DNA of 40,248 nucleotides. Source: Actinomycetes bacterium (GTDB lineage Bacteria > Actinomycetota > Acidimicrobiia > Acidimicrobiales > RAAP-2). The notes under the pieces are model-generated. The model did not search any database, was not told the origin of the DNA, and was given only the letters and a program-made list of their open reading frames with translations. The stretch covers positions 1 through 40,248 of the forward strand of contig JAJXUK010000017.1 of assembly GCA_021782915.1 (NCBI GenBank). Direction: 5' to 3'. This document shows, in pieces, positions 2,877-38,093 of this stretch. The translations under genes were made by a program, and so were the position numbers. Every line of letters begins with the position of its first letter. Positions within the stretch are counted from its first letter, which is position 1.

Positions 2877-3920
2877 TTGAGCACGGCACGTGAGATCCCC
2901 CTCGAGGTCTACGGGGCCGCCCGCGTGCTCGAGCCGACGGGCGCGCTGGCCCAGGGCGCGCGCCGCCTCGACGCGGCGCCGCCCCGGCGCGACTTCGAGA
3001 TCGAGCTCGCCGTCGACACCCTGTGCCTGGACTCGACGAGCTTTCGCCAGTTGGTCGAGTTCAACGGTGCGCGCGCTGAAGGGATCTCCCAGGACATCCT
3101 GAGGATCGTCGGCGAGCGCGGCAAGATGCACAACCCGGTGACCGACTCGGGCGGCATCCTCTCGGGCACGGTGCGCTCGATCGGGTCCGCGTACCGCGAC
3201 CCACCCGCGCTCGGCCAGCGCGTGGTGTCGCTCGGCTCGCTCACGCTGAGCCCGCTGAGCCTCGAGCACGTCGGACCCGTGGACGTCGCCTCGCCCCTGG
3301 TGCCGGTGCGCGGCACGGCGTACCTGTCCTGGCTCATCCCGTGGGCCCCTTTTCCTCGCGATCTGCCGTTCGAGGTCGCGGTCGCCGCGCTCGATGTGGG
3401 CAACGCGCCGGTGCAGACGCGCGAGCTCATCAGCGAGCGCACGCGGGTCGTCCTGATCCTGGGAGCGGGCCACGCGGGACTGCTCGCCATGGCCGCGGCT
3501 CGTGAGGCACTGGGCGCGCCGGGGCGCGTCGTCGTGATGGACGCCTCGCCCAGCGCGTGCGAGCTCGCCGTGTCGCTCGGCCTGTGCGACGAGGCCATCG
3601 TGGCCGACCTGCGCGATCCTCTCGGCGCCCTGGAGCAGGCGCGCCGTCACGGCGTGCCGCCCGCCGACCTCACGGTGGTGCTGGTCAACGCGACGCACTG
3701 CGAGATGACGGCGATGGCCCTGACGGGCGACGAGGGGACCGTCCTGTTCTTCTCGATGGCGACCAACTTCTCGCGGGTGGCCCTGGGATCCGAGAGCGTC
3801 GCGACGACCGCGCGCCTCGTCATCGGGTCGGGCTACGCCGCGGACCGGGGTGACTACGCCCTGATGCTGCTCTCGCGACACCCGGCACTCCGCGACGCTC
3901 TCGGCGCGAGGAGCACGTAG
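2877..3920 (+). CDS. kdd: L-erythro-3,5-diaminohexanoate dehydrogenase
   Basis: This NAD-dependent dehydrogenase family converts L-erythro-3,5-diaminohexanoate to 5-amino-3-oxohexanoate (with ammonia release) in lysine fermentation. The block GKMHNPVTDSGGILSGTV is very close to the family signature, and LFFSMATNFS and IGSGYAADRG near the C-terminus fit too. A Rossmann nucleotide-binding stretch (VVLILGAGHAG) sits near the middle. I chose the TTG at 2877 because GGGGAGG lies 4 nt before it; an in-frame ATG at 2838 would add 13 residues without a good ribosome-binding site. The other lysine-fermentation genes (aminomutases kamA and kamDE, kce, kal) are not in the window, so the gene is isolated, between wall and secreted-protein genes. 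The family call is strong; the physiological role here is open. Confidence 0.85.
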   Translation: MSTAREIPLEVYGAARVLEPTGALAQGARRLDAAPPRRDFEIELAVDTLCLDSTSFRQLVEFNGARAEGISQDILRIVGERGKMHNPVTDSGGILSGTVRSIGSAYRDPPALGQRVVSLGSLTLSPLSLEHVGPVDVASPLVPVRGTAYLSWLIPWAPFPRDLPFEVAVAALDVGNAPVQTRELISERTRVVLILGAGHAGLLAMAAAREALGAPGRVVVMDASPSACELAVSLGLCDEAIVADLRDPLGALEQARRHGVPPADLTVVLVNATHCEMTAMALTGDEGTVLFFSMATNFSRVALGSESVATTARLVIGSGYAADRGDYALMLLSRHPALRDALGARST

Positions 3921-4041
3921 ATCTCATCTCTCGGCGTGCCGGCGGTCCGCGCTAGTGCGCCGACGTTCAGCTGCCCGATTCGTGCGTGAGTGACCCACGC
4001 GTTCGCGACATACTGGGGCTGGTATCGAGTGAAGGAGGCCC

Positions 4042-4923
4042 GTGCGGGCACTCACCCGGATCGCTCTGATCCTCGCTCTGGTGTCGGGCGCGGCTAGCGT
4101 CGCCACGCACGCCGAGCCGTCGGGCGCGAGCGCGCGGGTCGTTCTCTACCTCGACCTGGGCGCGTCGGTGTCACGAGGCGTGCAGCCCACCCCAGCGGTC
4201 CCCACCGGCCAGCCGACCACTCGGGGCTACGCCAATCGTCTGGTCGCCCTCGAGAGGGCGCGGGGGGTCTCTCTCGCCCTCACCGAGCTGGGATGCCCCG
4301 GCGAGTCGATCGCCACGATGCTGCACGGGCCCGATCCGTGCTACCTGGCCCCCGACACCCAGCTCTCGGACGCCGTGGCCTTCATGCACGCACACCGACA
4401 GGAGCGCACCCTGGTGAGCATCGACATGGGCTTCAACACGCTCGACGTGTGCTTTCGGCACCGTGACATCGACCTGACGTGCGTGACGCCGGTGCTGAGG
4501 ACGCTGCGGGCCCAGCTCACGACGCTGGTGGGCACCCTGGTCGCCGCCGGCGGAGCCCAGGTGCTCTACGTGGGGCTCAATCACTACAACCCGTACCTCA
4601 CCCAGGGGCTCAAGGAGGGCGCGCGGGAGGTCTTTGCTCTCAACAGCGAGCGCGCGCTGAGCCGAATGAACGCGGTCTTCGCGCAGGTCTACGGCTCGTA
4701 CCACATTCGCGTCGCCGACGTGGAGGGCGCCTTTCACGAAGACGACACGCGCGCGCTGCGAGTCCCGGGCCAGGCCGAGCGCGTGGCGGCCAACGTCCTC
4801 TACGAGTGCCGCTTCACGTGGATGTGCGCGCCGCGGCCCTACGGGCCCAACATCCATCCCACCGACGCGGGCTACGCCGCCATCGCCGGGGCGATCGCTC
4901 GGGTGCTGCCCGCCGGGTACTAG
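4042..4923 (+). CDS. Secreted SGNH/GDSL-hydrolase-like protein with altered active-site motifs
   Basis: A 293-residue protein with a signal peptide (about residues 1-24, ending THA-EP) and an SGNH-type layout. Block I reads LDLGASVSRG, so the nucleophile serine is kept but the usual Asp of GDS is Ala. Block III reads MGFNTLDVC, keeping the Gly and Asn. Block V reads NIHPTDAGYAAI, keeping the His, but the Asp of the DxxH pair is Pro. Four or more cysteines in the mature part (GCPG, DPCY, DVCF, LTCV) suggest disulfide bonds outside the cell. It may be an esterase or lipase with a modified catalytic dyad, or a non-catalytic relative; the substrate is unknown. The GTG start is supported by AAGGAGG just upstream. 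Confidence 0.7.
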   Translation: MRALTRIALILALVSGAASVATHAEPSGASARVVLYLDLGASVSRGVQPTPAVPTGQPTTRGYANRLVALERARGVSLALTELGCPGESIATMLHGPDPCYLAPDTQLSDAVAFMHAHRQERTLVSIDMGFNTLDVCFRHRDIDLTCVTPVLRTLRAQLTTLVGTLVAAGGAQVLYVGLNHYNPYLTQGLKEGAREVFALNSERALSRMNAVFAQVYGSYHIRVADVEGAFHEDDTRALRVPGQAERVAANVLYECRFTWMCAPRPYGPNIHPTDAGYAAIAGAIARVLPAGY

Positions 4924-5019
4924 AGCCGCGCGCGCGAGCGGACCGCGCGCACTATTGGATGCTCCGATTCACCCCATGTTCAGGGCTAATGCACTTCGTG
5001 GCTTTCATAGCCATTGCCT

Positions 5020-5073
5020 ATTCAAAGAATCGATTCTCCGAGTTGGACTTTCCCTCGTCAGAGGCAGTATTAC
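5020..5073 (+). promoter_or_regulatory. Candidate promoter and palindromic operator of the sulfur/Hdr operon
   Basis: The 190-bp gap before the TusA gene is A/T-richer than its surroundings. It contains a perfect 12-bp palindrome, AGAATCGATTCT (5026-5037), that overlaps a second inverted pair ATTC-AAA-GAAT (5020-5030), giving three alternating half-sites. Six bp further on is a possible -35 TTGGAC (5043-5048), then 16 bp and a -10-like CAGTAT (5065-5070). The layout would suit a dimeric helix-turn-helix repressor acting upstream of the operon. Inferred from sequence only. Confidence 0.4.
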
Positions 5074-5114
5074 GGAGACGTACCCGAGATGAAGAACCTC
5101 GGAGAGGAGTTACC

Positions 5115-5375
5115 GTGACGATCAGTATTGAAGAATTGCGAGACCTGAAGTCGGACGCCGTCATCGACGCGCGCGGCACCTCGTGCCCCGGGCCGATCCT
5201 GGCGGCCAAGAAGGGCATTCCCGGTGTGCCGGCGGGCGGACTGATGGAGGTGCTGGCCACCGACTCGGGCACCCTGAGGGACCTGCCAGCCTGGTGCAAG
5301 AAGATGGGCCACGAGTTCTTGGGCCACGTGGAAGAGCCGGGGCACCTGCGCCTCTTCTTGCGCAAGGCGGCCTAG
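5115..5375 (+). CDS. TusA-family sulfur-carrier protein
   Basis: An 86-residue protein of the TusA/SirA family, small cytoplasmic proteins that carry sulfane sulfur as a persulfide and hand it to partners. The family motif is clear: DARGTSCPGPIL at residues 18-29, with Cys24 as the sulfur-bearing residue, followed by EVLATDSGTLRDLPAWCKK, which is typical of TusA. A second cysteine sits at position 61. The GTG start at 5115 is chosen because GGAGAGGAG lies 5 nt upstream and the family begins just before this point. It is the first gene of a seven-gene operon; its TAG overlaps the next gene's GTG by one base. In Hdr-like sulfur oxidation and reverse-Dsr systems TusA delivers sulfur to the redox enzymes, so a donor role for the complex encoded downstream is the natural inference. 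Confidence 0.9.
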   Translation: MTISIEELRDLKSDAVIDARGTSCPGPILAAKKGIPGVPAGGLMEVLATDSGTLRDLPAWCKKMGHEFLGHVEEPGHLRLFLRKAA

Positions 5376-5788
5376 TGGCCTCAGTCTCCCATCCTCGCAT
5401 CCTGGTCTTCTCGACGACCAACATCTCGGATCCGGGCATCGACCTGGCCGGGAGTCGTCACCTGCACTACCCGGCCAGCGTCTTTACCCTGAGCGTGCCG
5501 TGCTCGAGCGCGGTGCGCCCGGGCTGGATCGTGGACGCCCTGGAGCACGGCTTCGACGGCGTGTTCGTCGCGGCCGACGGGGACGAGTGCGCCCTGCTCG
5601 CCGACTGCAACCAGCGCACCGCGAGGCTGGTCAGCCTCGCCCAGGCCCAGCTCACCGAGCTCGGCATCGCGCCCCAGCGGGTCACGATGGCCGCGCTCTG
5701 CTCGGTGTGTGCCGAGCCCTTCGTCAACCACATGAGGGAGTTCTCCGCGAAGCTCGCGGCGCTCGACCCCGCCGTGCACGCCGCATAA
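5375..5788 (+). CDS. MvhD/FlpD-like hydrogenase iron-sulfur subunit
   Basis: A 137-residue protein of the MvhD family (methyl-viologen-reducing hydrogenase delta subunit), which carries an iron-sulfur cluster and passes electrons between a partner oxidoreductase and HdrA. Visible cysteines are Cys43 (VPCSSAVRPG), Cys72 and Cys78 (DECALLADC) and Cys109 and Cys112 (LCSVCAEPF). The spacing matches the family pattern of a CSGRV-like site, a GC/DC pair and a final Cys region. The GTG start overlaps the TusA stop by one base. In QmoB and in some HdrA proteins this module is fused at the C-terminus; here it is separate, while the second HdrA-like protein of the operon lacks it. A role as electron relay to the HdrA subunits is inferred. 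Confidence 0.8.
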   Translation: MASVSHPRILVFSTTNISDPGIDLAGSRHLHYPASVFTLSVPCSSAVRPGWIVDALEHGFDGVFVAADGDECALLADCNQRTARLVSLAQAQLTELGIAPQRVTMAALCSVCAEPFVNHMREFSAKLAALDPAVHAA

Positions 5789-5798
5789 GGAGGCGACC

Positions 5799-6290
5799 GT
5801 GACCGAGATGACCACCACTACGGGCAAGAAGACGATCATCGTCTTCAGCGGCGAGATGGACAAGATCCTCGCCGCGTTCGTGATCGCCAACGGCGCGGCC
5901 GCGATGGGCGACGACGTGACGATGTTCTTCACGTTCTGGGGACTCAACGTGCTGCGCAAGGACGCGAGTGCCCACGTGCACAAGACGGCCCTGGAGCGCG
6001 CCTTCTCGTGGATGATGCCGCGCGGCACCGAGCATCTGCGCATGTCGCACTTCAACTTCGCCGGCGCTGGCCCGCATCTCTTGAGCCACATGATGAAGGC
6101 CCACCACGTCGATCCCATCTCGGAGATGCTCGCCACCGCGCGCGAGCAGGGCATCCAGATGATCGCCTGCACGATGTCGATGGACGTCATGGGGATACGC
6201 CGCGAGGAACTCATCGACGGCATCGACTACGCCGGCGTGGCCACATACCTCGGCGAGGCCGACGAGGCCAACGTCAACCTCTTCATCTAG
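5799..6290 (+). CDS. DsrE2-like sulfur-transfer protein
   Basis: A 163-residue DsrE-fold protein of the DsrE2 type. The family block FSGEMDKILAAFVIANGAAA (residues 16-35), the TMFFTFWGLNVLR stretch (41-53) and the conserved Cys124 in MIACTMSMDVMG are all present. The cysteine is the probable persulfide carrier. DsrE2 proteins are commonly encoded beside TusA and rhodanese genes and exchange sulfane sulfur with TusA; the TMFFTFWG stretch is hydrophobic enough to suggest membrane contact. The GTG start at 5799 is preceded by a perfect AAGGAGG placed on the stop of the previous gene. With TusA it forms the sulfur-delivery half of this operon. No rhodanese is seen in the cluster. Confidence 0.88.
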   Translation: MTEMTTTTGKKTIIVFSGEMDKILAAFVIANGAAAMGDDVTMFFTFWGLNVLRKDASAHVHKTALERAFSWMMPRGTEHLRMSHFNFAGAGPHLLSHMMKAHHVDPISEMLATAREQGIQMIACTMSMDVMGIRREELIDGIDYAGVATYLGEADEANVNLFI

Positions 6291-6307
6291 CCGAAGGATC
6301 GAAACTG

Positions 6308-9040
6308 ATGGACTACGACGTACTCGTCGTCGGGGGTGGCATCGGGGGGATGGAGTCGTCGCTCAAGCTCGGCGACATGGGCTACAAGGTCCTGCTCGTC
6401 GAGAAGGAGCCGAGCGTGGGTGGCAGGATGATCCTGCTCTCCAAGGTCTTCCCGACCCTGGACTGTGCGAGTTGCATCTCGGGTCCGAAGATGTCCTCGA
6501 CGGTGAATCACCCGAACGTCACGGTGGCCTCGTCCTCGCTGGTCGAGGCCATCCACCCCCAGGCCGACGGCAGCTTCCGGGCGAGCGTGACGCACAAGGC
6601 GACCTACGTGGACGCCGCGGCCTGCACGGGTTGCCAGGAGTGCGAGCCGGTCTGCCCGGTCGCGGTGCCCGACCAGTTCAACGCCGACCTGGTGCCCCGG
6701 CGTGCGGTGTACCTGGCCTTCCCCCAGGCCGTTCCCAAGAAGGTCGTGATCGAGCGCGCCGGGACCTCGCCGTGCAGCGGCGAGTGCCCCGCGGGTATCA
6801 AGGCCCACGGCTACGTGGCCCTGGCCCGCGAGGGGCGCTACGAGGAGGCCTTCCAACTGGTCCTCGAGGCGACCCCACTCGTGGGCACCCTGGGACGCGC
6901 CTGCTACGCGCCCTGTGAGGATCAGTGCACGCGCGCCGACCTCGAGGGCTCCGTGCCCATCAGGGCGATCAAGCGATTCCTCGCCGACCGGCACTACGCC
7001 GAGAGCGACACGCCGGGCGTCAGCCTGGCGCAGGCCAACGGGCGCTCCGTCGCGGTCGTCGGCTCCGGCCCGGCGGGCCTGACCGCGGCCTGGCAGCTGG
7101 CCCTGCGCGGCTACGCCGTGACGATCTTCGAGGCTGACGATGAGCCGGGTGGCTTCTTGCGCTACGCGCTGCCGGCCTTCCGGCTGCCGGGCGAGGTCGT
7201 CGAGCGCGACATCCAGAACGTGCGCGACGTCGGTGTGACGATCCTCACCGGCGCGCGGGTCAGCGACCCCGTAGCGCTCACCACGCGCGGCTTCGATGGC
7301 GTCATCGTGGCCACGGGCACGCCCCTGGCGACGCCGCTGGAGGTCCCCGGGACCGATGCGGAGGGCGTGTGGAGCGGACTTGACTTCTTGCGTGACGTGC
7401 GCCTGGGACGCGCGCCGTCGCTGCAGGACCAGCGCGTGGTCGTGGTCGGCGGCGGCAACGTCGCCATGGACGCCGCGCGCAGCGCGGCGCGCCTGGGCGC
7501 CTCGTCGGTATCCATCGTGTACCGGCGCGGACGTGACGAGATGCCCGCGCACGAGGACGAGATCGCCGGCGCCGTTGCCGATGGGGCGTCTTTGCGCCTC
7601 CTGCTCGGACCCGCGGAAGTGGTCACGGATTCCGCGGGCCGGGTGAGCGCCCTTCGCTGCGACGTCATGCGTCTCGGCGAGGCGGACGCCTCCGGACGGC
7701 GCCGGCCCGAACCGGTGCCCGGACGCTCCGAGCTCGTCGAGGCCGACGTGCTCATCGCGGCCATCGGCATGGCGCCGGACGTGGGCGCACTGGCGCACGT
7801 GCTGGACACGACGCACGGGCGCCTCGGCGCCGACCCGACGACCCTGCAGACCTCGGTGCCCAACGTGTTTGCCGCCGGCGACGTCGTGGTGGGCGCCAGC
7901 GACATCACTCGCGCGGCCGGTGCGGGCCGGCGCGCGGCGATCAACCTCGACCGCTTCCTCAACGGCGAGGCGCTCGGGCCGATTGACGCCCTGGATGGGC
8001 GCCTCGACACGATCGCTCACGACAGCGTGATCAGGCGCCAGGCGCGCTACAGCGAGCACGCCGCCGTCGAGCGGGGACTCAACGCGGGCGAGCTCGCCAG
8101 CTTCGAGGAGATCGAGCGCACCCTGAGCGAGGACGAGGTCCTGGCGGGGGCCTCGTCCTGCCTGGACTGCGGCGTGTGCTCGGAGTGCGGCTCCTGCGCG
8201 CGGGCCTGTCCGGCCGACGCCATCGACTTCACGATGCGCGATCGCACCGAGGAGGTTCGTGTGGGCTCGGTCGTGGTCTCCACCGGCTTCACCCTCTTTC
8301 CGGCCGACCTCAAACCCGAGTACGGCTGGGGGGTCTACCCCAACGTGATTACCGGCATGCAGATGGACCGCCTCATCGCCCCGACGCGGCCGTTCAACAC
8401 GATCCTGCGACCGAGTGATGGCAAGGTGCCGGAGCGAATCGGCTACGTGTCCTGCACCGGCTCGCGCGATCGCACCGTGGGCAATCCGCGCTGCTCGAAG
8501 ATCTGCTGCATGTACTCGATCAAGCAGAACCAGCTCATCATGGGCACCTTGCCCCTGGCGGACGTGAGCATGCACTACATCGACATCCGCGCGGCGGGCA
8601 AGCGCTACGAGGAGTTCTACCAGCAGTCCGCCGCCATGGGCGCCCAGTACATCAAGGGCCGCGTGGCGTCGATCTCCGAGACGCCCGAGCAGAACCTGCT
8701 CGTGCGCTACGAGGACATCGAGGGCACCGGCAACATCGTCGAGACCGAGTACGACCTCGTGGTCCTGGCCGTGGGCGTGCAGCCCAACCCGGCCGCCGCC
8801 GCGCTCTTCCCGGACCAGGCCCTCGAGCTCGACGAGGCGGCCTTCGTCTTCGAGCCCAACGAGGACCTGCAGCCCGGGCGCACCAACATCCCGGGCGTCT
8901 ACGTGGCCGGCGCGGCCTCGGGGCCTAAGGACATCGTGGACTCGATCGCCCACGCCGGCGCCGCGGTCTCCGGGGTGGCGGCCTACCTGCAGGCCCACCG
9001 CGTGAGCACCGAGCCCGAGCTGATGGGGGTGACGCGATGA
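6308..9040 (+). CDS. HdrA/QmoA-like flavoprotein with inserted GltD-type NAD(P)H oxidoreductase module
   Basis: A 910-residue iron-sulfur flavoprotein. Residues 1-100 are the N-terminal HdrA FAD-binding part (GGGIGG at 9-14, LDCASC at 51-56). A ferredoxin-like motif CTGCQECEPVCP follows at 106-117. Residues ~145-560 are an inserted domain of the GltD type (small subunit of glutamate synthase, also found in NfnB and DPD): cysteines at 156-207 including ACYAPCEDQC, an FAD motif GSGPAGLTAA (252-261), an NAD(P)H motif GGGNVAMDAA (381-390) and AAGDVV. HdrA sequence then resumes with CLDCGVCSECGSCARACP (618-635), CTGSRD (716-721) and CSKICC (729-734). It can be expected to connect NAD(P)H with HdrA flavin/FeS chemistry. 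ATG 6308 has AAGGA upstream. The gene overlaps the next one by 4 nt. The role in bifurcation or in simple transfer is not decided by sequence. Confidence 0.88.
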   Translation: MDYDVLVVGGGIGGMESSLKLGDMGYKVLLVEKEPSVGGRMILLSKVFPTLDCASCISGPKMSSTVNHPNVTVASSSLVEAIHPQADGSFRASVTHKATYVDAAACTGCQECEPVCPVAVPDQFNADLVPRRAVYLAFPQAVPKKVVIERAGTSPCSGECPAGIKAHGYVALAREGRYEEAFQLVLEATPLVGTLGRACYAPCEDQCTRADLEGSVPIRAIKRFLADRHYAESDTPGVSLAQANGRSVAVVGSGPAGLTAAWQLALRGYAVTIFEADDEPGGFLRYALPAFRLPGEVVERDIQNVRDVGVTILTGARVSDPVALTTRGFDGVIVATGTPLATPLEVPGTDAEGVWSGLDFLRDVRLGRAPSLQDQRVVVVGGGNVAMDAARSAARLGASSVSIVYRRGRDEMPAHEDEIAGAVADGASLRLLLGPAEVVTDSAGRVSALRCDVMRLGEADASGRRRPEPVPGRSELVEADVLIAAIGMAPDVGALAHVLDTTHGRLGADPTTLQTSVPNVFAAGDVVVGASDITRAAGAGRRAAINLDRFLNGEALGPIDALDGRLDTIAHDSVIRRQARYSEHAAVERGLNAGELASFEEIERTLSEDEVLAGASSCLDCGVCSECGSCARACPADAIDFTMRDRTEEVRVGSVVVSTGFTLFPADLKPEYGWGVYPNVITGMQMDRLIAPTRPFNTILRPSDGKVPERIGYVSCTGSRDRTVGNPRCSKICCMYSIKQNQLIMGTLPLADVSMHYIDIRAAGKRYEEFYQQSAAMGAQYIKGRVASISETPEQNLLVRYEDIEGTGNIVETEYDLVVLAVGVQPNPAAAALFPDQALELDEAAFVFEPNEDLQPGRTNIPGVYVAGAASGPKDIVDSIAHAGAAVSGVAAYLQAHRVSTEPELMGVTR

Positions 9041-10755
9041 CCCAGAAGCGGCGAATCGGCGTGTTCATCTGCCACTGCGGCGGCAACATCTCGGACTACG
9101 TGGACGTGGCCGCGGTGCGCGAGGCCGTCTCGGACATGGGCGAGGTGGCCTTCGCCGAGACCTCGATGTTCGCCTGCTCGGACGGAACCCAGCAGGACAT
9201 GATCCGACGCATCGAGGAGGAGAACCTCGACGGGCTCGTGGTGGCGTCCTGCTCGCCCAAGCTGCACCTGACGACGTTCCGTGGCGTGTCGCGCCGCGCG
9301 GGACTCAACCCGTTCCAGTACACGCAGGTCAACATCCGCGAGCAGTGCTCGTGGGCGCACACCGACGACCGTGTGGGCGCCACGCAGAAGGCCACGGGTC
9401 TCGTGCGCGGGGCCGTCGCGCGCACCGCGCAGAGCTCGGCCCTCGTGCCGCTGCCGGTGGAGACCACGCCGGCCTCGCTCGTCGTGGGCGGCGGGGTGAC
9501 GGGCCTGCGCGCCGCGATCGGCCTGGCTGACCTGGGCCTGGACGTGCACCTGGTGGAGCGCGCCGAGCAGCTGGGGGGCCAGGTGGCCAGCTTGGGCGCC
9601 ACGTTCCCCGATCAGCGTGAGGGGCGCGCGATGATCGACGAGCTGCTCAGCGAGCTCGACGCGCGCGCACACATCGCGGTGCACACCGAATCGACGATCA
9701 CCGCCAAGAGTGGCAGCTTCGGCAACTACGACGTGACGCTGCAGGGGCCCAACGGCCAGAGCGTGACGACTCGGGTCGGCTCGATCGTGGTGGCGACCGG
9801 TGCGGCCAGCTACGTGCCCGAGCCCGGCGAGTTCGGCTTTGGCCTGGCCGGCGTGGTGACCCTGGAGGACTTCACGCGCGGGATCGAGAGCCACGCGGGA
9901 CGCCTGCACTTCCGGGGCCAGCCCGTGCGCACGGTGGTCTACGTCTACTGCGTGGGCAGCCGCCAGGAGAACGGCAACGAGTACTGCTCCAAGTACTGCT
10001 GCTCGGCCGCGGTGCACGCCTCGGTCGAGGCGGCCGACCTGGACCCGGCGGTTCGCCAGTACCACCTGTATCGCGACATCCGCACCTACGGGCGCCACGA
10101 GCTGAGCTACGAGGCCTCCCGCCGGCGCGGCTCGGTCTACCTCAAGTACGCCGACGACGATCCTCCGGTGGTCGAGATGGGCGAGGGCGGACGTCTGCGC
10201 GTGCTGACGACGGATCGGCTCACCGAGTCCACCCCCCTGCAGATCGACGCTGACGTGGTCGTGCTCGTCACCGGACTCGTGCCCCAGCAGAACGCCGAGC
10301 TGACCTCGCTGCTGCACCTGCCCCTGGGTAGTGACGGCTTCTACAGTGAGATCCACCCCAAGTTGCGTCCGGTGGAGACCGTGGTCGACGGCGTCCTGAT
10401 CGCCGGCACGTGCCAGGCGCCCAAGACGATCTCCGAGAGCGTGGCGAGCGGACTGGCGGCCGTGACCCAGAGCGGGGCGATGCTGATGCGCGGGGTGGCC
10501 GAGCTGGATCCCCAGGTGGCCGTGGTCGATCACGACGCGTGCACCTGGTGCGGCGCGTGCGCGGCCGTGTGCCCATACGAGGCCATCAGCCACCAGGTGA
10601 TCTCGGCCCGCGACGTCGCCGTCATCGACCCCACCGTCTGCAAGGGCTGCGGAGGCTGCGTGTCCTACTGCGAGGCCGGGGCGATCGACCTGCTGGGCAA
10701 CACCGACGCCCAGGTGCGCGCGTTGATCGAGAACCTGGTGGAGGTGCGAGCATGA
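9037..10755 (+). CDS. HdrA-like / QmoB-like iron-sulfur flavoprotein
   Basis: A second HdrA homologue of 572 residues. It opens with the HdrA N-terminal domain (IGVFICHCGGNI, residues 7-18; ASCSPKLHLTTFRG, 70-83), followed by an FAD Rossmann motif GGGVTGLRAA (151-160) and a mid-region Cys cluster (VYCVGSRQ and CSKYCC, ~304-322). It ends with two [4Fe-4S] ferredoxin motifs, CTWCGACAAVCP (from 502) and CKGCGGCVSYCE (from 539). It corresponds to QmoB, but without the C-terminal MvhD module that QmoB usually carries; a separate MvhD is encoded upstream. It starts at an ATGA overlap with the first HdrA gene and ends at an ATGA overlap with the small winged-helix gene. Probably a cytoplasmic subunit of a complex with the neighbouring HdrA and the membrane subunit. 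Confidence 0.88.
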   Translation: MTQKRRIGVFICHCGGNISDYVDVAAVREAVSDMGEVAFAETSMFACSDGTQQDMIRRIEEENLDGLVVASCSPKLHLTTFRGVSRRAGLNPFQYTQVNIREQCSWAHTDDRVGATQKATGLVRGAVARTAQSSALVPLPVETTPASLVVGGGVTGLRAAIGLADLGLDVHLVERAEQLGGQVASLGATFPDQREGRAMIDELLSELDARAHIAVHTESTITAKSGSFGNYDVTLQGPNGQSVTTRVGSIVVATGAASYVPEPGEFGFGLAGVVTLEDFTRGIESHAGRLHFRGQPVRTVVYVYCVGSRQENGNEYCSKYCCSAAVHASVEAADLDPAVRQYHLYRDIRTYGRHELSYEASRRRGSVYLKYADDDPPVVEMGEGGRLRVLTTDRLTESTPLQIDADVVVLVTGLVPQQNAELTSLLHLPLGSDGFYSEIHPKLRPVETVVDGVLIAGTCQAPKTISESVASGLAAVTQSGAMLMRGVAELDPQVAVVDHDACTWCGACAAVCPYEAISHQVISARDVAVIDPTVCKGCGGCVSYCEAGAIDLLGNTDAQVRALIENLVEVRA

Positions 10756-10991
10756 CGAGCCCGCGTGATCAGCGCGAGATCATCCGCGACGAGCCCCTGA
10801 TGCACCGGCCGATCCTGGCCGCGCTGGCCGACGGGCCGCGCACCATTCCCGAGATCGCTGCGGCGCTCGGTCGCCCGAGCAGCGAGGTCGTCTACTGGGT
10901 GATGGGGATGCGTCGCTACGGCTTCGTCATCGAGGAGCCGGAGGCGAACGAGGACGGCTACTTCCTCTACGGACGAAAGGACGCGCGATGA
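10752..10991 (+). CDS. Small winged-helix-like protein inside the Hdr/Qmo operon
   Basis: A 79-residue protein with no cysteines. The segment RPILAALADGPRTIPEIAAA followed by SSEVVYWVMGMRRYGFVIEE has the form of a winged helix-turn-helix: helix, turn, recognition helix, then a wing ending in DGYFLYGRK. ATGA overlaps on both sides tie its translation to the QmoB-like and QmoC-like genes. It could be a DNA-binding regulator of the operon or a structural/assembly protein using the fold for protein contacts; its position between two structural subunits makes the second possibility real. I do not recognise a named family. Confidence 0.7.
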   Translation: MTSPRDQREIIRDEPLMHRPILAALADGPRTIPEIAAALGRPSSEVVYWVMGMRRYGFVIEEPEANEDGYFLYGRKDAR

Positions 10992-12166
10992 CGACCCTGG
11001 CTCCTCGCGTGGTGGACCCTCACCTGCTCGCCGATCTGCAGCGTCTCGGCGCACCGGACGTGAGCGCGTGCGTGAGCTGCGGCAACTGCACGGCGATCTG
11101 CCCGCTGGCCGACAACGACGGGACGTTCCCGCGCCGCCTGGTGCGTTACGGCGTGGTGGGCCTGCGCGAGGAGCTGCTCAGCTCCAAGGAGCTGTGGACC
11201 TGCTATCACTGCGCCAAGTGCTCGGAGAGCTGCCCGCAGCAGGCCGATCCCGGGGCGTACATGGCCGCGGCCCGGCGCTACGCGGTCGCCAGCTACGACC
11301 CGACCGGCGTGGCGCGTGTGTTGGCTCTGAGCCCCGTGGCGAGCCTTCTCACGCTGCTCGTGCTCGCGGCCGGCTTCGCCTCGATTCTCAGCGTGGGCCA
11401 CGGCCCGGCGTCGCACGCGCGACTGGACCTCTTCGGCTTCGTGCCGGACGCGACGATCCACTGGACCGGCATCGCCGTGATGGTGATCGTGTTCCTGGTG
11501 GCGCTGCTCGGCCTGGGTTCGATGGTGCGGGCGGTGGCCCGGCGCGAGGGCGTGCACGGGCGTGAGCTCGTCACCGGGCGCCGGGGCTGGGCCCACGGGC
11601 TGCGCGCGGCCTACGACGCGGCCCTCGTCGAGTCACTCGGCCAGCGCCGCTACCGCGAGGACTGCAGCGAGGGTGCCCCGGAGCCGTGGTATCGGCGTCG
11701 CTGGATCGCCCACGCCCTGACCATGTGGGGCTTCCTAGGGCTCCTGGCCGCCACGATCCTCGACTACGCCCTGGCCCTGCTCGGCGTCCGCGCCACCGGC
11801 ACACCCGAGCCCGTCTGGTACCCGGTTCGCCTGCTCGGCACGCTGGCCGGCATCGCGATGCTGATCGGGGTGAGCACGCTGATACTGAATCGCGCGCGTC
11901 GGGTGACGACGTCCGTGACGCACTCCGAGCCCGGGGACTGGCTGCTGCTGAGCCTCCTGTGGCTCGTGGGCGCCAGCGGGCTGGGCACCGAGATTGCCCT
12001 CTACGTGGGCGGCGGACCAGCCTGGGGCTACGGCGTCTTCGTCGCGCACGTGACGCTCGCGCTCGAGCTGCTGATCCTCGTGCCCTTCATGAAGTTCGCC
12101 CACGTCCTGTACCGGCCGCTGGCGCTCTTCTTCCACTCACTCGCTCGCGCGGCGGCGGTGCGCTAG
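10988..12166 (+). CDS. QmoC-like (HdrC-HdrE fusion) membrane-bound iron-sulfur/heme subunit
   Basis: A 392-residue membrane subunit. The N-terminal ~90 residues are HdrC-like, with two [4Fe-4S] motifs: CVSCGNCTAICP (28-39, Cys 28/31/34/38) and CYHCAKCSESCP (72-83, Cys 72/75/78/82). About six hydrophobic segments follow, e.g. around LLTLLVLAAGFA, VMVIVFLVALLGLG, MWGFLGLLAATILDYA, LGTLAGIAMLIG, LLSLLWLVGASG and LALELLILVPFM, matching the HdrE / NarI-like cytochrome b part of QmoC. Histidines in or near these segments (IHWTG, IAHAL, VAHVT) are candidate heme b ligands. It should exchange electrons with menaquinone and anchor the soluble HdrA-like subunits. The ATG overlaps the previous stop; this is the last gene of the operon, and a 106-bp gap follows. 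Confidence 0.88.
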   Translation: MTTLAPRVVDPHLLADLQRLGAPDVSACVSCGNCTAICPLADNDGTFPRRLVRYGVVGLREELLSSKELWTCYHCAKCSESCPQQADPGAYMAAARRYAVASYDPTGVARVLALSPVASLLTLLVLAAGFASILSVGHGPASHARLDLFGFVPDATIHWTGIAVMVIVFLVALLGLGSMVRAVARREGVHGRELVTGRRGWAHGLRAAYDAALVESLGQRRYREDCSEGAPEPWYRRRWIAHALTMWGFLGLLAATILDYALALLGVRATGTPEPVWYPVRLLGTLAGIAMLIGVSTLILNRARRVTTSVTHSEPGDWLLLSLLWLVGASGLGTEIALYVGGGPAWGYGVFVAHVTLALELLILVPFMKFAHVLYRPLALFFHSLARAAAVR

Positions 12167-12272
12167 GCGTCTCGATGGCTCGTCCTGCGCGCTCTGGACG
12201 TGGAGCGTGTCGAGGCCTGGCCCTACGATGAGGCCACGGCCCAAAGGCGCGGGGGAGCCGAAGGGAGGCCCG

Positions 12273-13706
12273 ATGCGCGTTGCTCGAGTGCTGGTCTTCG
12301 TGGCGGGAGTCATGGTCCTGCTGGTGTCCATGGGCATCGGCGCCGGGGGCGGGGTGCTCTTGTGGGCGAACGGGACTCAGCGCGACGCCGCCGGCTACTT
12401 CAGCACTCCCGCTGAGGAGTTCCGGTCCCCGGGCGTGGCCCTGGTCTCGACGGTCAGCTTCGCGATGCACCCCGCGGCGAACTCGTGGATCAACATCGAG
12501 CCCCTGGGCACCGTGCGCGTGCGCGCGAGCGTGCCGGGGGCGTCCACGTTCCTCGGCATCGCGCCGAGCGCTCGGGTGAGTCGCTACCTGGCCGGCTCGA
12601 GCTACAGCCGGGTGGACTCGGTGTCGCTGCTGCCCTTCCGGGCGCACTACCGCGAGAGCGTGGGCTCCGTGCGTCCCGCTCGGCCGAGCAGCCAGGGCTT
12701 CTGGGTCGCCTCGGTGAGCGGAGTGGGGACCCAGCAGCTCACCTGGCACCCGACGAGCGGGAACTGGACGTTGGTGCTGATGCGCACGGACGCACGCGCC
12801 GGGCTCAGCGCGCAGGTGGCCGTGGGCACCAACACCGGGCTCGTCGCGCCACTCGGGGTGCTCCTCGTGATCATCGCGCTGCTGGCGGCCGGACTCGGCG
12901 CTCTCCTGGTCGTCGTCGGCGCCCGCGGGCGCCGGGCCCGAGCGCCGGCGAGCGCGCCCGAGCCACTCGGCGTCTCGCGCTGGGCGCCGGGGGCCTACCC
13001 GGTTCGCCTGGAGGGCCGCCTCGAGCCCGGCCTGAGTCGCTGGCTCTGGCTCATCAAGTGGATTCTCGTGATACCGCACCTGATCGTGCTGGGCGTGCTG
13101 TGGCTGGCGGTGCTCGTGCTCACGATGGGTGCGGCGGTGGCGATCCTGGTCACGGGGCGCTATCCGCGTGACATCTTCGCCTTCGTGGTGGGGGTGATGC
13201 GCTGGAGCTGGCGGGTGGGCTTCTACGCGAGTTCGGCCTTCGGCACCGACCGCTACCCGCCGTTCTCGCTCGCCGCCGACGCGAGCTACCCGGCCGACTT
13301 CGACGTGGCCTACCCGGAGCACCTGTCGCGCGCCCTGGTGCTCGTCAAGTGGTGGCTGCTGGCGATCCCGCAGTACATCATCGTGGGCCTCTTCACGGGC
13401 GGGGGCGTCACGTTCACCGGACACTGGCCCCCGCAGTGGTGGTTCGTCGGCGGCGGGGCGATCGGCATCCTGGTGGTGGCGAGCGGAGTCGTGCTGTTGT
13501 TCACGGGCACCTACCCGGCACCGCTCTTTGACGTGGTGATGGGCATGGACCGTTGGAGCGCGCGGGTGGCCTGCTACGCGCTGCTGCTGCGCGATGAGTA
13601 CCCACCGTTCCGCTTCGACGCGGGCGGGGCGGACCCGGCGAGCCTGGCCGCCGCACCCGAGGCGCCGGGGCCCGACCCCGGCTCACCGGGGCCCCACGGC
13701 GCGTGA
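12273..13706 (+). CDS. DUF4389-containing membrane protein
   Basis: A 477-residue membrane protein. An N-terminal membrane segment (residues ~3-30) is followed by an extracytoplasmic region of ~170 residues, then a membrane helix (VLLVIIALLAAGLGALLVVV). After it come two copies of the DUF4389 pattern: YPVRLEGRLEPGLSRWLWL with a membrane pair, and YPEHLSRALVLVKWWLLAIP with another, each ending in a RYPxxxF / YPAPLFD and DRYPPFS / DEYPPFR stretch. The function of DUF4389 is unknown. The start ATG is preceded by AAGGGAGG at 12261-12268, and a TACGAT -10-like box lies at ~12222. The C-terminus is Ala/Pro-rich. It converges with the next gene across 277 bp in which I see no gene. Confidence 0.8.
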   Translation: MRVARVLVFVAGVMVLLVSMGIGAGGGVLLWANGTQRDAAGYFSTPAEEFRSPGVALVSTVSFAMHPAANSWINIEPLGTVRVRASVPGASTFLGIAPSARVSRYLAGSSYSRVDSVSLLPFRAHYRESVGSVRPARPSSQGFWVASVSGVGTQQLTWHPTSGNWTLVLMRTDARAGLSAQVAVGTNTGLVAPLGVLLVIIALLAAGLGALLVVVGARGRRARAPASAPEPLGVSRWAPGAYPVRLEGRLEPGLSRWLWLIKWILVIPHLIVLGVLWLAVLVLTMGAAVAILVTGRYPRDIFAFVVGVMRWSWRVGFYASSAFGTDRYPPFSLAADASYPADFDVAYPEHLSRALVLVKWWLLAIPQYIIVGLFTGGGVTFTGHWPPQWWFVGGGAIGILVVASGVVLLFTGTYPAPLFDVVMGMDRWSARVACYALLLRDEYPPFRFDAGGADPASLAAAPEAPGPDPGSPGPHGA

Positions 13707-14189: not shown

Positions 14190-16709
14190 TCACTCCTCTC
14201 TCTGACGAGCCCTGTGAGTCTCGTCGTGTTGCTTTCCACTGACCTCGTGGGCCCGACGCTCGTCGGAACCAGTGCCCCCGCCGGGCCCCTCGCCCGGTGG
14301 GGGCGGAGCGTTCTGGAGCTCGGGCTGACGGCGCTGGCCAGCCAGCCAGATCAGCACCAGCGCGCCGCTCGCGACGGCGCTGAGGGTGAAGGTGAGACCC
14401 AGCGTGCGCGTGGGCAGGCTGAGCGCGTAGAAGTCGCGCACCGCCGCGACGGGAAAGAGCATCGCGAAGGCGCCGACCATGATCGCCACCAGGAGCACGC
14501 GGCGCCCGCTGAGCGGGCGCGCGAGCAGCCCGAGAACCACGAGACTCGGCAGGAAGGCCCCGAGCGCGGCGCCCGAGCGCTGCTGGATGAGTGGCAGGCC
14601 CCTCGCGTGGGCCAGCCAGTACGAGGCCAGTATCGAGGCGAAGATGACCGTGCCGGCCGGGACGCTGAAGCCCAGCACGCGGGTCACGAAGCCGGGCACG
14701 TAGCGTTGTGGATTCGGCGCCAGGGCGATGAAGAAGGCCGGGATCCCGATGGCGAGCGCGTCGATGACCGTCAGGTGCCGGGGCAGGAGGGGGAAGGGCC
14801 ACGCGGCCACGCCGATCGCCAGACCCAGCAGGGTGGCCCAGACGCTCTTGACGATGAACAGGCTGGCGACGCGCTCGATGTTGGCGGTCACCCGACGCCC
14901 GTCGGCGAGCACACGGGGCAGGCGCGAGAACTGCCCGTCGAGCAGGACGACCTGGGCGACGGCGCGCGTCGCGGGTGCGCCCGAACCCATCGCGATCCCC
15001 AGGTTGGCGGCCTTGAGCGCGAGCGCGTCGTTCACGCCGTCGCCGGTCATGGCCACCGTGTGACCACGGGCCCGCAGGGCCGCGACCATGGCGCTCTTCT
15101 GCTGAGGCGTCACGCGCCCGAAGACGCCACGGTCCTCGACGAGCTCGGCGAGGGCCCCCGCCTCGCTCGGCATCGTGCGCGCGTCGACCGGCTCCTCAGC
15201 GCCCGGCACCCCCAGCTGCTGGGCGATGGCGCCCACCGTGGCGGCGCTGTCGCCGGAGATGACCTTGATCTTCACACCCTGAGCGCTGAAGTAGGCGAGC
15301 GTCGCCGCGGCGTCAGGGCGCACGTGTTCGGCCAGGAGGACGAGGGCCATCCAGCGTCGCGGCGTCGGTAGCGAGGTGCCGCTCAGCGAGGAGGGCGAGT
15401 GACACAGGGCCAGCACGCGCCGTCCGGTGCCGGCCAGCTCGTCGGCGCGAGCCAGGGCCTCGCTCTCGGTGGGCTCCAGGACGATCTCCGGGGCCCCGAG
15501 GATCCAGCTGCCCCGTTCGGCGAAGGACGCCGCGCTCCACTTTCGCTCCGAGCTGAAGGCGACGGTCGCCTCGCGCCGCCAGCCCGGCGGCGCGGAGAAC
15601 GTCTCGGCGAGGGCCGACAGGGTCGCGTTGGCCTGCTCCTCCTGGGCCAAGGCTCCCAGGGCCCCATCGACCAGGTCGGTCGCTTCGCGCCGCTCCAGGC
15701 GCTCGAAGGCAACCCGGCCATCGGTGAGCGTGCCCGTCTTGTCGAGGCAGACGACGTCCACGCGCGCGAGGGCCTCGATGGCGGCCAGCTCCTGGACGAG
15801 GACGCGCTGGCGAGCCAGCGAGACCGCCGCGACGCCGAAGCTGATGCTCGTCAGCAGGACCAGTCCCTGGGGGACCATCGCGACCAGGCCCGTGACCACG
15901 CCGGTGACGACCTGGCGCCAGCCCAGGCCGGCGCGCAGCTGACCCGTGATGATCAGGACCGCGACGGGCACGACGGCGATGCTCACGTATCGCAGGAGAC
16001 GGTTGATGCCCGCCATCAACTCGGAGTGCACGAGCTCGAAGCGCTTGGCCTCGGTCGTCAGGCGGTGCACGTAGGCCTGGGCGCCGACGCCGAGCGCCTG
16101 GTAGGCACCCGAGCCGGCGACGACGATGCTGCCCGAGCGCACGTCGTCACCCACCACCTTGTCCACGGGCAGCGACTCGCCGCTCAGGAGTGACTCGTCG
16201 AGCTGCAGGCCGGTGCTGGCGAGCACGACGCCGTCGGCCACGACCTGTTCTCCGGCGCTGAGCAGCACCAGGTCGTCGAGCACCACGTCGTCCACGGCGA
16301 GCTCGATGCGCTCAGCGTCGCGAACCACGCGAGCCCGGGGCGCGTTGAGTATCGCCAGACGGTCGAGGGTGCGCTTGGCGCGCAGCTCCTGGACGATGCC
16401 GATGAGGGCGTTGGCCAGGAGCACGATGCCAAAGAGGGCATCGCGAAGGTCCCCGGCCACCACGATGAGCACCAGCAGTGATCCCAGCAGGAAGTTGAAC
16501 CGGGTCACGATGTTCTCGCGCAGGATCCCGGCGATGGTGCGGCTGGTGGGCTGAGCGAATGCGTTGGTGCGACCCTCGCCGATGCGTGCGAGCACCTGCT
16601 GACTCGTCAGACCCGACGAGGGCGTCACCGCACCGGCGCGCTCACGATGCGCCGGTGTGTCGTCCATCACTCGACGCGCCGACGTGCGGACAGTCGCCCG
16701 GCGCGCCAC
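14190..16709 (-). CDS. P-type cation-transporting ATPase, CtpE-like
   Basis: An integral-membrane ATP-driven cation pump of 839 residues. Features in order: N-terminal cytoplasmic region with GLTSQQVLARIGEGRTNAF; first membrane pair (~73-105); actuator domain with SGES (176-179, equivalent to TGES); membrane pair containing MVPQGLVLL (278-286) in the ion-binding M4 position; phosphorylation motif DKTGTLTD with Asp323; nucleotide-domain features; the hinge TGDGVNDALALK; and C-terminal membrane segments. The overall pattern resembles mycobacterial CtpE, reported as a calcium transporter, rather than heavy-metal pumps: there is no N-terminal metal-binding CxxC and no CPC motif. GTG 16709 or ATG 16667 (residue 15) could be the start; neither has a clear ribosome-binding site. 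A good promoter lies at 16772-16800. Confidence 0.88.
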   Translation of the reverse strand: MARRATVRTSARRVMDDTPAHRERAGAVTPSSGLTSQQVLARIGEGRTNAFAQPTSRTIAGILRENIVTRFNFLLGSLLVLIVVAGDLRDALFGIVLLANALIGIVQELRAKRTLDRLAILNAPRARVVRDAERIELAVDDVVLDDLVLLSAGEQVVADGVVLASTGLQLDESLLSGESLPVDKVVGDDVRSGSIVVAGSGAYQALGVGAQAYVHRLTTEAKRFELVHSELMAGINRLLRYVSIAVVPVAVLIITGQLRAGLGWRQVVTGVVTGLVAMVPQGLVLLTSISFGVAAVSLARQRVLVQELAAIEALARVDVVCLDKTGTLTDGRVAFERLERREATDLVDGALGALAQEEQANATLSALAETFSAPPGWRREATVAFSSERKWSAASFAERGSWILGAPEIVLEPTESEALARADELAGTGRRVLALCHSPSSLSGTSLPTPRRWMALVLLAEHVRPDAAATLAYFSAQGVKIKVISGDSAATVGAIAQQLGVPGAEEPVDARTMPSEAGALAELVEDRGVFGRVTPQQKSAMVAALRARGHTVAMTGDGVNDALALKAANLGIAMGSGAPATRAVAQVVLLDGQFSRLPRVLADGRRVTANIERVASLFIVKSVWATLLGLAIGVAAWPFPLLPRHLTVIDALAIGIPAFFIALAPNPQRYVPGFVTRVLGFSVPAGTVIFASILASYWLAHARGLPLIQQRSGAALGAFLPSLVVLGLLARPLSGRRVLLVAIMVGAFAMLFPVAAVRDFYALSLPTRTLGLTFTLSAVASGALVLIWLAGQRRQPELQNAPPPPGEGPGGGTGSDERRAHEVSGKQHDETHRARQREE

Positions 16710-34500: not shown

Positions 34501-37500
34501 CTAACGCTTGTAAGCGTCGGCTTCCTTGGGACTCCCTTGAGCATCATAGAGGGCAGCAAGGGCGCTGTAAATGGGGACCATATCAGGGTGTTCGGAGGGC
34601 AAGGTCCGGCGCATTAAGTCAAGTAACTCGAGTAATACAGGCTCAGCTTCGCTGAGGCGACCCTGAGACTCGTAGAGCAGGGCGAGTGAAAGAAGGGCAG
34701 TGGCGAAGTTGAGGTAGTTGGGGAACTTCCCGGCTCTGCAAATCTTCCGAGCCTCGACAAGAAGCGGCTCGGCCTCATCGAAGCGGACTTGGTCCTGATA
34801 GAGAATGCCAAGATGGAGGAGAATCAGGCCGATCTTGGGGTGACCGGGGCGCCACGCGTGTCGGCCGATTTCCAATGCCTCGAGTAGGAGCGGCTCGGCC
34901 TCTCTGAAGCGCTTCTGAGCCCTGTAAAGCGCACCGAGACTGCCGAGGAGCTCAGCGACGGTGGGGGGGCTCGGGAACGGGACGGATCGAGCGTTTTGAA
35001 GTGCCTCGAGTAGGAGCGGCTCGGCCTCTCTGAAGCGCTTCTGATCCCTGTAAAGCGCACCGAGGTTGCCGAGAGCAACATTGATTTCGGAATGACCGGG
35101 GCGTAGTGCTAGCCGGTCGATCTTGATCGCCTCGAGCAGGAGCGACTCGGCCTCCTCGAAGCGACCTTGATCTTTGAAAAGCACTGCAAGGTTATTGAGA
35201 GCCCTTCCGATTCGGGGGTGGCATGGGGGCAAGGCAGTTTGCAGGATGTCGAGTGCTTCTCGGAATAGCGACTCGGCTTCCCCTAGTCGCCCTTGACTTT
35301 CGTAGACTGCGGCGAGGTCGGTGATGTCGGCAGCAATGATCGTGTCGGAGGGAGGATGAGCCACCCGATAGATTTCCTGAACCTCACCGAATAAGACTTC
35401 CGCTAGTTCGAAGTGTCCCTGGTCTCGGTAGAGTGCAGCGAGGTTTCGGAGGGCACTGGCGATAAGGGATCCGCCTATCCTCGGGGAGGCGGCACGAGCA
35501 ATTCCTAAAGCCTCGCGGAGTAGCGGCTCGGCTTCATCTAGTCGTCCCTGTTTGTGAAAGAGAGAGCCGAGTTTGTCGAGGCTCGATGCGATATGTGGGT
35601 CGTCTGGGGAGAGGCCAGCTCGACAAACCTCGACGGCCTCGCGGAGTAGCGGCTCGGCTTCATCTAGTCGTCCCTGCGATTGGTAGACACTCGCAAGACT
35701 CGTAAGACCAAAGGCGATGTTGGGATTGTCTGGGGGGAGGTTGGCGCGGTCCGTCTCCAGCAGAGCAATATCCCACGCCTCGGCCAGCATGAGGAAGTTC
35801 AAGTTATCTAGCCATATCCCCAAGAAAAGGATGGCCTTGAAGCCGTAGGTGTCCGAGGTTGTTGCCACTCCGAGTCGCTTCCAAGATTCGCCAATCGCGA
35901 CGACCTCGGGACTCATCTCGGCTCGCCCAGCCCCGAGCAACGTGAGGGCTCGCGAGAGTAGCGCTGGGTCCTCCTCCCAGAGGGCCGTGACTCGGCCCGG
36001 CTCACGGAGTAGCTGAACGAGGCGGTCGTGGTCCGCCAATTCGACCAACTGATGGGCGCGCTCGGCGATGTCCTCGCCGGTATCGGCTTCGCTGAAGGCG
36101 ATGAGCGATTCACGCCAGGCGGGCATGTTCTCGTCGATGAGCAAGGGAGCGGCGAGAGCGGCGTGCATGAGTGAGTGCCGACCGTTGTCAATGAGACTGA
36201 AGACGCCGAGACGCACCCAGAGGGGACTCATGACGAGGTCGGTAAGTCGTGCCTGTCCGGTGGCGGGGTCGATGGGGTCTCCCTCCTCGGCTAAGAGTGC
36301 GCGGAGTTGCGGATAGGTGAGACCTCGGCGCGACGCGACGGCGAGACCGCCGGCTCGACTTGCGAGTCCGGGGTGGATGTGTGCGAAGTCCTCGTTCATC
36401 TCGGCGAGGACGGTGAGGAAGAGTCGTCCCGTATCACCCGAGGCGAGCAGGGACGCGACGCGCTCTCGTAGTGAGTCGTAGTCGGCGTGCAGGTGCAACT
36501 CGTCGAGCACCAGGCGTAAGAACAACGGCACCGCACTCGCCGGATCGTGAACCAGGTTTTCGAGCAGGTCCTCATCGAGGCTTCTTCCGTGGCGCCTGAG
36601 GTGCGCGACGATGAGTTCGCGTCGACGTCTTTCTTCGAGGTTCGGGACCGACATGGTGTGCCACGTCGAACGCGGTGGCGTGATTAGGTCGGGGGTCGCT
36701 GAGACGACCAGGCAGCATCCCTCGGGCACAAACAGGTCATCGAGTCGTGCGAGAGACGTAGGAATGTCATCGAGGACGTTGAGGGCGTCGAGAACCACGA
36801 CAACGTTGACTGCAAGGCACCGGGCCACCTCACTCATCACGAGGGGCAGTACGTCCCAGCGTGCCTCGTCGCCGTCTGGGAGTTCACTCGTCACCTTTCC
36901 GGTCGCGACGAGTTCGTCGAGCACCCTCTCGCGCCAGGCGCGTAGAGAGCGGTCCCCGGCAGCGCCTATGTAGTGGGCGAGGACGAGTGCGTCACGTTCG
37001 CTCGTCGCGTAGTGGGCGAGTAGGGCCGATTTGCCGTAGCCGGAGGGAGCGCTGACCCAGACTCGCCTGGCTCGCGGGCTCACTTCGGCGGATTCGGTCG
37101 TGATCGTCGTAGCGAGTGTGGCGTCCAGCGTGGCGTCGGCGATGTAGTCGATCAGGCGTGAGGTGCCGTATGCGCGGTGGGCGAGGTGCACGCGCTGGAT
37201 CGGTGTGAGCGTGTCGGTCGAGGGGAAGAGCCGATCGAGCCCGTCGAGGAGGAACTTCTCCGCGGCCGAGCCGAAGCCGTCGAGGTCGCGGTAGTCCTCG
37301 CGGACGTCGGGGTGGTACTTATCGAGCCAGTCTTTGAGGGCGGCGAGAGAACTCGCCCCCGAGTCCTCCGTCGTGCCGTCGCCGTCATTTGGATCCGTGC
37401 GCGCGAACTCCGCGCTGAGTGCCGGGTCGCGTCTGAAGACCTTGGCCACCCAAGCTCGGCCCTTCGGCACGTCCTCGAGGGCGAGGCGCAACTCGAATTC

Positions 37501-37899: not shown

Positions 37900-38093
37900 G
37901 ACACCCCCCGGGAACGCTCTTGAGTGGATGATAGTGAGATGCGTGCGGGTGCGCTAGGGGGGGGCAACGATGGAAATGATTGAGGTTCAAGATAGATGGC
38001 GAAGAATGCGGCTTAACTCGGTCGCGCCGCGCGTGACAGTGCGCGGACGGTGTGATACTCGTGAAAATGCCGAGATATGCCGGGGAGGTCACC

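Follow-up and report, generated by a model that had tools for sequence, protein, structure and literature searches.

A conserved TusA-linked Hdr/Qmo operon in an actinobacterial genome and its possible role in the handling of carrier-bound sulfane sulfur

The stretch of DNA analysed here (the window, 40,248 nucleotides of contig JAJXUK010000017.1 from an Actinomycetes bacterium) carries at positions 5115-12166 a set of seven genes, all on the forward strand, which encode in this order TusA, MvhD, DsrE2, an HdrA with a GltD-type insert, a QmoB-like HdrA, a winged-helix protein and QmoC. The window lies at G000:C80 of the host genome, which amounts to 2.15 Mb in 84 contigs and is 97.16% complete. 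The genes of the operon and their main features are as follows:

5115-5375, + strand: TusA sulfur carrier (Pfam TusA, 4.7e-20)
5184-5186, + strand: Cys24 of TusA, in an SCPGP motif; kept in 36 of 36 aligned family members
5375-5788, + strand: MvhD/FlpD-like protein (Pfam FlpD, 3.7e-28)
5699-5710, + strand: C109-x-x-C112 of MvhD, specific to the family
5799-6290, + strand: DsrE2-like sulfurtransferase (Pfam DrsE_2, 5.2e-61; solved relative 3pnx, 1.1e-30)
6168-6170, + strand: Cys124, the sole cysteine of the DsrE2-like protein; kept in 31 of 31 aligned
6308-9040, + strand: first HdrA (P0005), in the position of QmoA, with a GltD-type insert; HdrA models match at both ends
about 6758-8155, + strand: GltD-type NAD(P)H module of the first HdrA, about residues 151-616 (a GltD-type model matches 145-650)
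9037-10755, + strand: second HdrA, QmoB-like, with an N-terminal HdrA domain and two C-terminal 4Fe-4S sites
10752-10991, + strand: small winged-helix protein of 79 residues (AlphaFold2 model, mean pLDDT 93.7)
10988-12166, + strand: QmoC-like subunit, with an HdrC-type 2x[4Fe-4S] domain and a membrane part

The Pfam and NCBIfam matches for TusA, FlpD, DrsE_2, HdrA, GltD and QmoC agree with the identities given in an earlier note made from the sequence alone, and the tight packing that it described is likewise present: four of the six junctions are overlaps, one of 1 nt and three of 4 nt, and the other two are gaps of 10 and 17 nt. The DsrE2-like protein scores 87.2 bits, under the NCBIfam DsrE2 cut-off of 210, and the QmoC-like subunit matches NCBIfam qmoC at 2.5e-52 and 178.5 bits, under the cut-off of 300, with its HdrC domains matched in the PDB. 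From sequence, the winged-helix protein gives only Pfam matches below cut-off; its fold is confident in the structural model. The operon is flanked upstream by a GDSL lipase-like open reading frame (ORF) and downstream by a DUF4389 ORF, neither of which recurs among relatives, and no sigma-70-like promoter or terminator-like site was found in 4900-12500.

Relatives of the operon were collected from 396 genomes of the phylum and by a QmoB pattern scan of named genomes, at least 80 loci being kept; the family counts given below are among the loci listed by these scans, and most of the relatives are metagenome-assembled genomes (MAGs). QmoB matches at E <= 1e-30 occur in 89 of the 396 phylum genomes, and six genomes (G000, G241, G043, G250, G186 and G320) hold full-length matches that are either the window protein itself or 55-63% identical to it. 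One of these, G241, belongs to the same genus as the host, where the operon is present in two of the six genomes sampled. The family comprises at least 43 loci including the window, so that the seven-gene set, which recurs in 42 further loci, is not unique to it. By record title, 36 named loci are labelled with 13 phyla and four loci bear no phylum; one locus is archaeal (Thermoplasmatota, L064).

Across this family the gene content is largely fixed. TusA and MvhD are found in all 37 loci that reach upstream (six loci are cut off there), QmoC or HdrC in 42 of 42, and the winged-helix gene follows QmoB and precedes QmoC/HdrC in all 42 loci that extend far enough, one locus ending earlier. A DsrE2 relative is detected by tblastn in 31 of 43 loci, at a position that varies: before HdrA, between the winged-helix gene and QmoC, or after QmoC. 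An accidental gene order, which the earlier note had named as a possible objection, is rejected by the conservation of TusA-MvhD-HdrA-QmoB-winged helix throughout the family. Outside it, none of 51 other HdrA loci has TusA or the winged-helix gene within 7 kb on the same strand (tblastn), the exceptions at a larger distance being L085 and L116, where some 9 kb separate TusA from QmoB. In quick tree searches without bootstrap and with weak inner branches, which included 11 of these 51 loci, the family forms one side of a branch with a value of 100 in the Shimodaira-Hasegawa-like approximate likelihood ratio test (SH-aLRT), and the same split is recovered after three Apr-linked QmoB sequences are added. 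Of 244 flank ORFs, 86 were picked and mostly belong to housekeeping families; the recurrent families are DsrE (four members), rhodanese (two), thioredoxin (two) and type III sulfide:quinone oxidoreductase (SQR III; two, one of them located, in L035).

The cysteines of the putative sulfur carriers and of the clusters are conserved as well. In TusA, Cys24 lies in a CPxP-type motif, known for its role in TusA proteins. The cluster cysteines are nearly all conserved across the family, including the eight of QmoC in 42 of 42 loci. When compared to the solved hydrogenase MvhD, the MvhD of the operon has lost the first cysteine group and retains one cysteine pair position. Its C109-x-x-C112 pair is found in 37 of 37 family members and in 0 of 40 aligned MvhD proteins from other HdrA loci, which makes this CxxC the best candidate for a predicted TusA contact site.

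The two HdrA subunits differ in their flavin sites, here numbered after PMC12054007 and our HdrA alignment. Lys739 of the first HdrA aligns with the bifurcation-linked K409, a lysine being present in 43 of 43 loci, and the acidic partner (E356-type, Asp or Glu) is found in 41 of 41 aligned. In the second HdrA the K409 position is a lysine in 1 of 43 loci (a histidine in the window), and the partner position is acidic in 5 of 43. Residues suggestive of a flavin-bifurcating HdrA are thus confined to the first subunit, being residues alone and no proof of bifurcation. Of 41 decidable loci, 32 have the GltD insert, which changes state twice in a tree of 38 rows. Among these 32 inserts the dinucleotide motif is YRR in 21, including the window, CLE or SLE in ten, and degenerate in L050, a locus in which the rest of the cluster is intact. 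In Rossmann folds, YRR is the mark of NADP(H) binding and an acidic residue that of NAD(H) binding; we take the window motif to be NADP-type.

The third module exists in two states. QmoC with its membrane part is found in 28 of 43 loci, and in 13 of 43 its place is occupied by HdrC plus a CCG-type HdrB, one CCG subunit per locus; L079 and L076 are left without a label. Eleven of the HdrC/HdrB forms are separate proteins, with an HdrB of about 325 residues, and two are fused (L081, L084); Pfam CCG is confirmed on four of the 13 HdrB-type loci. The best tree requires at least five state changes between QmoC and HdrBC. The absence of HdrB claimed by the earlier note therefore holds for the host genome, where CCG occurs only in one TfrB-like protein, and fails for the family: with QmoC in 28 loci and HdrC/HdrB in 13, the family is modular, and the lack of HdrB is one of its states.

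The best reading of the gene content is that the products of the operon may form a complex that, with neither lipoate-carrier nor siroheme partners, exchanges electrons among NADP(H), menaquinone and the sulfane sulfur bound to its carriers. We give about an even chance to the view that it is an uncharacterised membrane-attached Hdr/Qmo complex whose protein substrate would be TusA and not AprAB, DsrC or a lipoate-binding protein. The link from sulfane sulfur to menaquinone or NAD(P)+, put forward in the earlier note, appears to agree with the parts and with the gene neighbours in relatives. In such a complex DsrE2 would load TusA, or TusA would unload to DsrE2, the sulfane sulfur being carried on Cys24 of TusA and Cys124 of DsrE2. 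The CxxC of MvhD would most likely be the point at which TusA docks on the MvhD/HdrA core. The first HdrA would supply a bifurcation-type flavin and, in its GltD part, a site for NADP(H); the second would act as an electron conduit. QmoC would meet menaquinone in the third module, and HdrBC would offer a disulfide/CCG site instead. As two haem-copper oxidases (COX1) are present in the host, the complex would there run mostly in the oxidative direction: carrier-bound sulfane sulfur would be oxidised, with electrons passing to menaquinone and, partly, to NADP+.

Several observations weigh against this reading. A COX1 match is found in 24 of the 40 genomes searched; the 16 without one at E <= 1e-20 include at least 14 operon carriers, so that an oxidative role would not be general. 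The SQR-like flavoprotein of the host, which adjoins cytochrome bd subunit I (G000:C41, L172:1889-4631), is far under its model cut-off (129 of 525 bits); G241 has SQR III pieces on two contigs, and the four other genomes of the genus have no SQR match. Among the relatives we found no sulfite- or sulfate-forming partner that recurs, and the QmoC-type loci have no CCG subunit to host the sulfur chemistry. Finally, nine of 41 loci have no GltD, which together with the degenerate motif of L050 indicates that the core can do without NAD(P)H.

In this regard, the same complex might run in reverse, electrons from NADPH and menaquinol reducing a TusA persulfide or disulfide to sulfide in sulfur respiration, detoxification or redox balance. 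By analogy with FlxABCD-HdrABC and its action on DsrC, the GltD insert would then be an entry for NAD(P)H and MvhD an Flx-type relay, the HdrC-HdrB forms of 13 loci resemble disulfide reductases, and the carriers without a COX1 match include Bacteroidota, Aminicenantota and Armatimonadota loci. The two COX1 of the host, the SQR inside the L035 cluster and the lack of a recurring sulfur-reductase partner point the other way, and we regard this direction as possible, though only tentatively so.

With regard to partners of the complex, profile searches of the host genome found no NIR_SIR (siroheme sulfite reductase), AprA, PF01747 Sat or SoxB. In 14 control genomes the models fire, except for AprA (0 of 14) and SoxB over cut-off (0 of 14), for which G406, G416, G421, G423 and G424 (AprA) and G416 (SoxB) provide positives. 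The single CCG protein of the host, TfrB-like and below the TfrB cut-off, is probably not an HdrB-type subunit as in sHdr, and its one GCV_H protein, away from the operon, scores over the gcvH cut-off and is probably a GcvH and not an LbpA. The lack of Dsr and Apr partners described in the earlier note stands for the host genome and extends to Sat, Sox and sHdr; a remote complete sHdr or Dsr/Apr system to which the operon could belong was not found in it, and the operon as partner of such a system is rejected for G000.

A divergent sHdr or Apr-linked Qmo with its usual partners encoded elsewhere is quite unlikely. HdrA, HdrC/QmoC, TusA and DsrE2 are parts in common, and AprA does occur in 5 of 36 carrier genomes. 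However, the host has none of the AprA, PF01747 Sat, NIR_SIR and SoxB matches and a single GCV_H, and the family falls in a separate clade. Moreover, three of the five AprA neighbourhoods hold their own QmoAB, with 26-28% identity to the window QmoB as against 39-43% for the TusA-linked copies of the same genomes; because both coexist in three genomes, the TusA-linked and the Apr-linked systems are not the same part. The three Apr-linked QmoB form their own clade, and MvhD is fused there and separate in the window. None of the marks of an Apr-linked QmoABC (AprAB in the genome and linked to it, a QmoC above cut-off, a QmoB of the Apr clade) is present in the host.

At G000:C9 (L157:7710-10620) the host encodes CysN, CysD and CysH, yet its genome yielded no siroheme sulfite reductase. 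It is conceivable, if unlikely, that the operon replaces this enzyme in assimilation, sulfite from CysDN/CysH being taken to sulfide on the carriers. Besides this gene content of the host, NIR_SIR is found in 1 of 13 GltD-type Actinomycetota carriers searched (2 of 14 with G007) versus 219 of 396 phylum genomes, and within the genus in 0 of 2 carriers versus 3 of 4 non-carriers. These rows are not independent, however, and many are MAGs; G210, of the same genus, lacks both operon and NIR_SIR, NIR_SIR is present in 8 of 36 carriers, and many carriers without CysH-type matches may simply use reduced sulfur. A wider proposal, which we consider doubtful, is that of a mobile TusA-Hdr/Qmo module, spread over many phyla and an archaeon and free of siroheme and lipoate, that would convert sulfide to and from sulfite or sulfane sulfur on the TusA/DsrE2 carriers, have an exchangeable QmoC/HdrBC output and supply sulfide where sulfite reductase is missing.

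In L071 and L077 the winged-helix protein forms an in-frame fusion with QmoB; because of these fusions it is probably a subunit, and a plain transcription factor is less likely. A fold search of the PDB returned many DNA-binding winged helices, none at E <= 0.001. The protein also bears on the proposal, very improbable in our judgement, that the operon delivers sulfur to biosynthetic pathways (tRNA thiolation, cofactors) or acts in redox sensing, the Hdr parts keeping TusA reduced. TusA does have sulfur-delivery roles such as tRNA thiolation in E. coli, and the winged-helix protein could be a regulator. Nevertheless, a two-flavin membrane complex would be large and costly for such a purpose, the presence of the operon in two of six genomes of the genus is patchy, and the QmoB fusions speak for a structural part.

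Among known systems, the TusA-linked complex proposed here resembles FlxABCD-HdrABC, which acts on DsrC and likewise combines an NAD(P)H module, an MvhD-type relay and HdrA/HdrBC on a small sulfur protein. The operon differs from it in having the NAD(P)H module inside HdrA, TusA/DsrE2 in place of DsrC, a second HdrA and QmoC; FlxABCD-HdrABC is mentioned in PMC10504309. Two oddities of the operon have precedents in print, namely the GltD in HdrA and the exchange of QmoC and HdrBC. GltD within the inserted ferredoxin domain of HdrA defines type III HdrA (PMC12054007), and the first HdrA of the window shows this arrangement; type III HdrA is described there for nine archaeal sequences and methane metabolism, whereas the present operon is bacterial and TusA-linked. 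Exchange of QmoC with HdrBC is described for Apr-linked Qmo (PMC10504309). Type II Qmo, which is nearer to HdrA, occurs with or without Dsr/Apr and is of open function, shares with the operon two HdrA-type subunits plus QmoC or HdrBC, as QmoAB(C) or QmoAB-HdrBC/HdrAACB (PMC10504309, PMC6397845). Compared by description only, the operon is unlike type II Qmo in that TusA, DsrE2, a separate CxxC MvhD and the winged-helix gene are fixed neighbours and Apr is not.

As for sHdr, which is tied to LbpA (PMC6067878), the family resembles it in having TusA/DsrE2 beside Hdr subunits and ArsR-type regulators in some loci (PMC6067878, PMC12423496), as well as an HdrB-type CCG subunit in 13 of 43 loci. It differs in the absence of LbpA and of a second HdrB, and in its two HdrA plus MvhD, GltD insert and, in 28 loci, QmoC. 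The YTD cluster/DsrEFH type II also has TusA and DsrE-type genes as a sulfur-carrier pair, although with a YedE transporter and DsrFH and no Hdr/Qmo core (PMC12998232, PMC13293266). No description of the seven-gene set was found in the literature searched, which did not extend to subscription papers and supplements.

In Hyphomicrobium, the sHdr genes are under the control of ArsR repressors that respond to sulfane sulfur (PMC12423496). In the family, ORF clustering places ArsR-type ORFs in 11 of 43 loci, two of which were checked with Pfam, and L035:3668-14264 encodes ArsR, a type III SQR, a 241-residue ORF, a distant DsrE2 and a second ArsR, followed by the TusA-MvhD-HdrA-QmoB cluster. Carrier-bound sulfane sulfur would be the theme common to TusA/DsrE2 in the operon, SQR III and the ArsR ORFs at L035, and ArsR elsewhere.

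Dsr, Apr/Qmo and sHdr are the basis of models of cytoplasmic sulfur metabolism, and carriers without those would be scored as unable to process sulfane sulfur. The complex may be a further cellular route of sulfur handling beside sHdr and Dsr/Apr; if so, sulfur capacity is being overlooked in lineages for which record titles state or hint at peat, acid-drainage and wastewater habitats. The QmoC/HdrBC swap on one core, together with the family-specific CxxC of MvhD, would offer handles on the contact between Hdr and a sulfur carrier.

Other observations concern the surroundings of related loci and of the operon. When 43 non-family loci were scanned with a hidden Markov model (HMM) of the winged-helix protein, six gave weak matches, none above 30.9 bits. 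Weak relatives of the protein in L111, L104, L096, L113, L106 and L117 lie near HdrA genes of archaea and others, and such proteins may be a wider accessory of Hdr systems. Downstream of the cluster in L054, positions 14458-16155 encode a CoA-disulfide-reductase-like protein of 566 residues, with room for an extra domain, that could act on persulfides. Near the AprA gene of L170 (G406:C70), the interval 3500-5000 holds two TusA and two DsrE2 relatives, with GCV_H matches on the contig, and is possibly a separate sHdr/Apr sulfur-oxidation region. In the window itself, a large DUF4062 and TPR protein of 1132 residues is encoded at 34501-37899 on the reverse strand, and is adjoined at 38052-39875 on the forward strand by a 607-residue ORF without a Pfam match.

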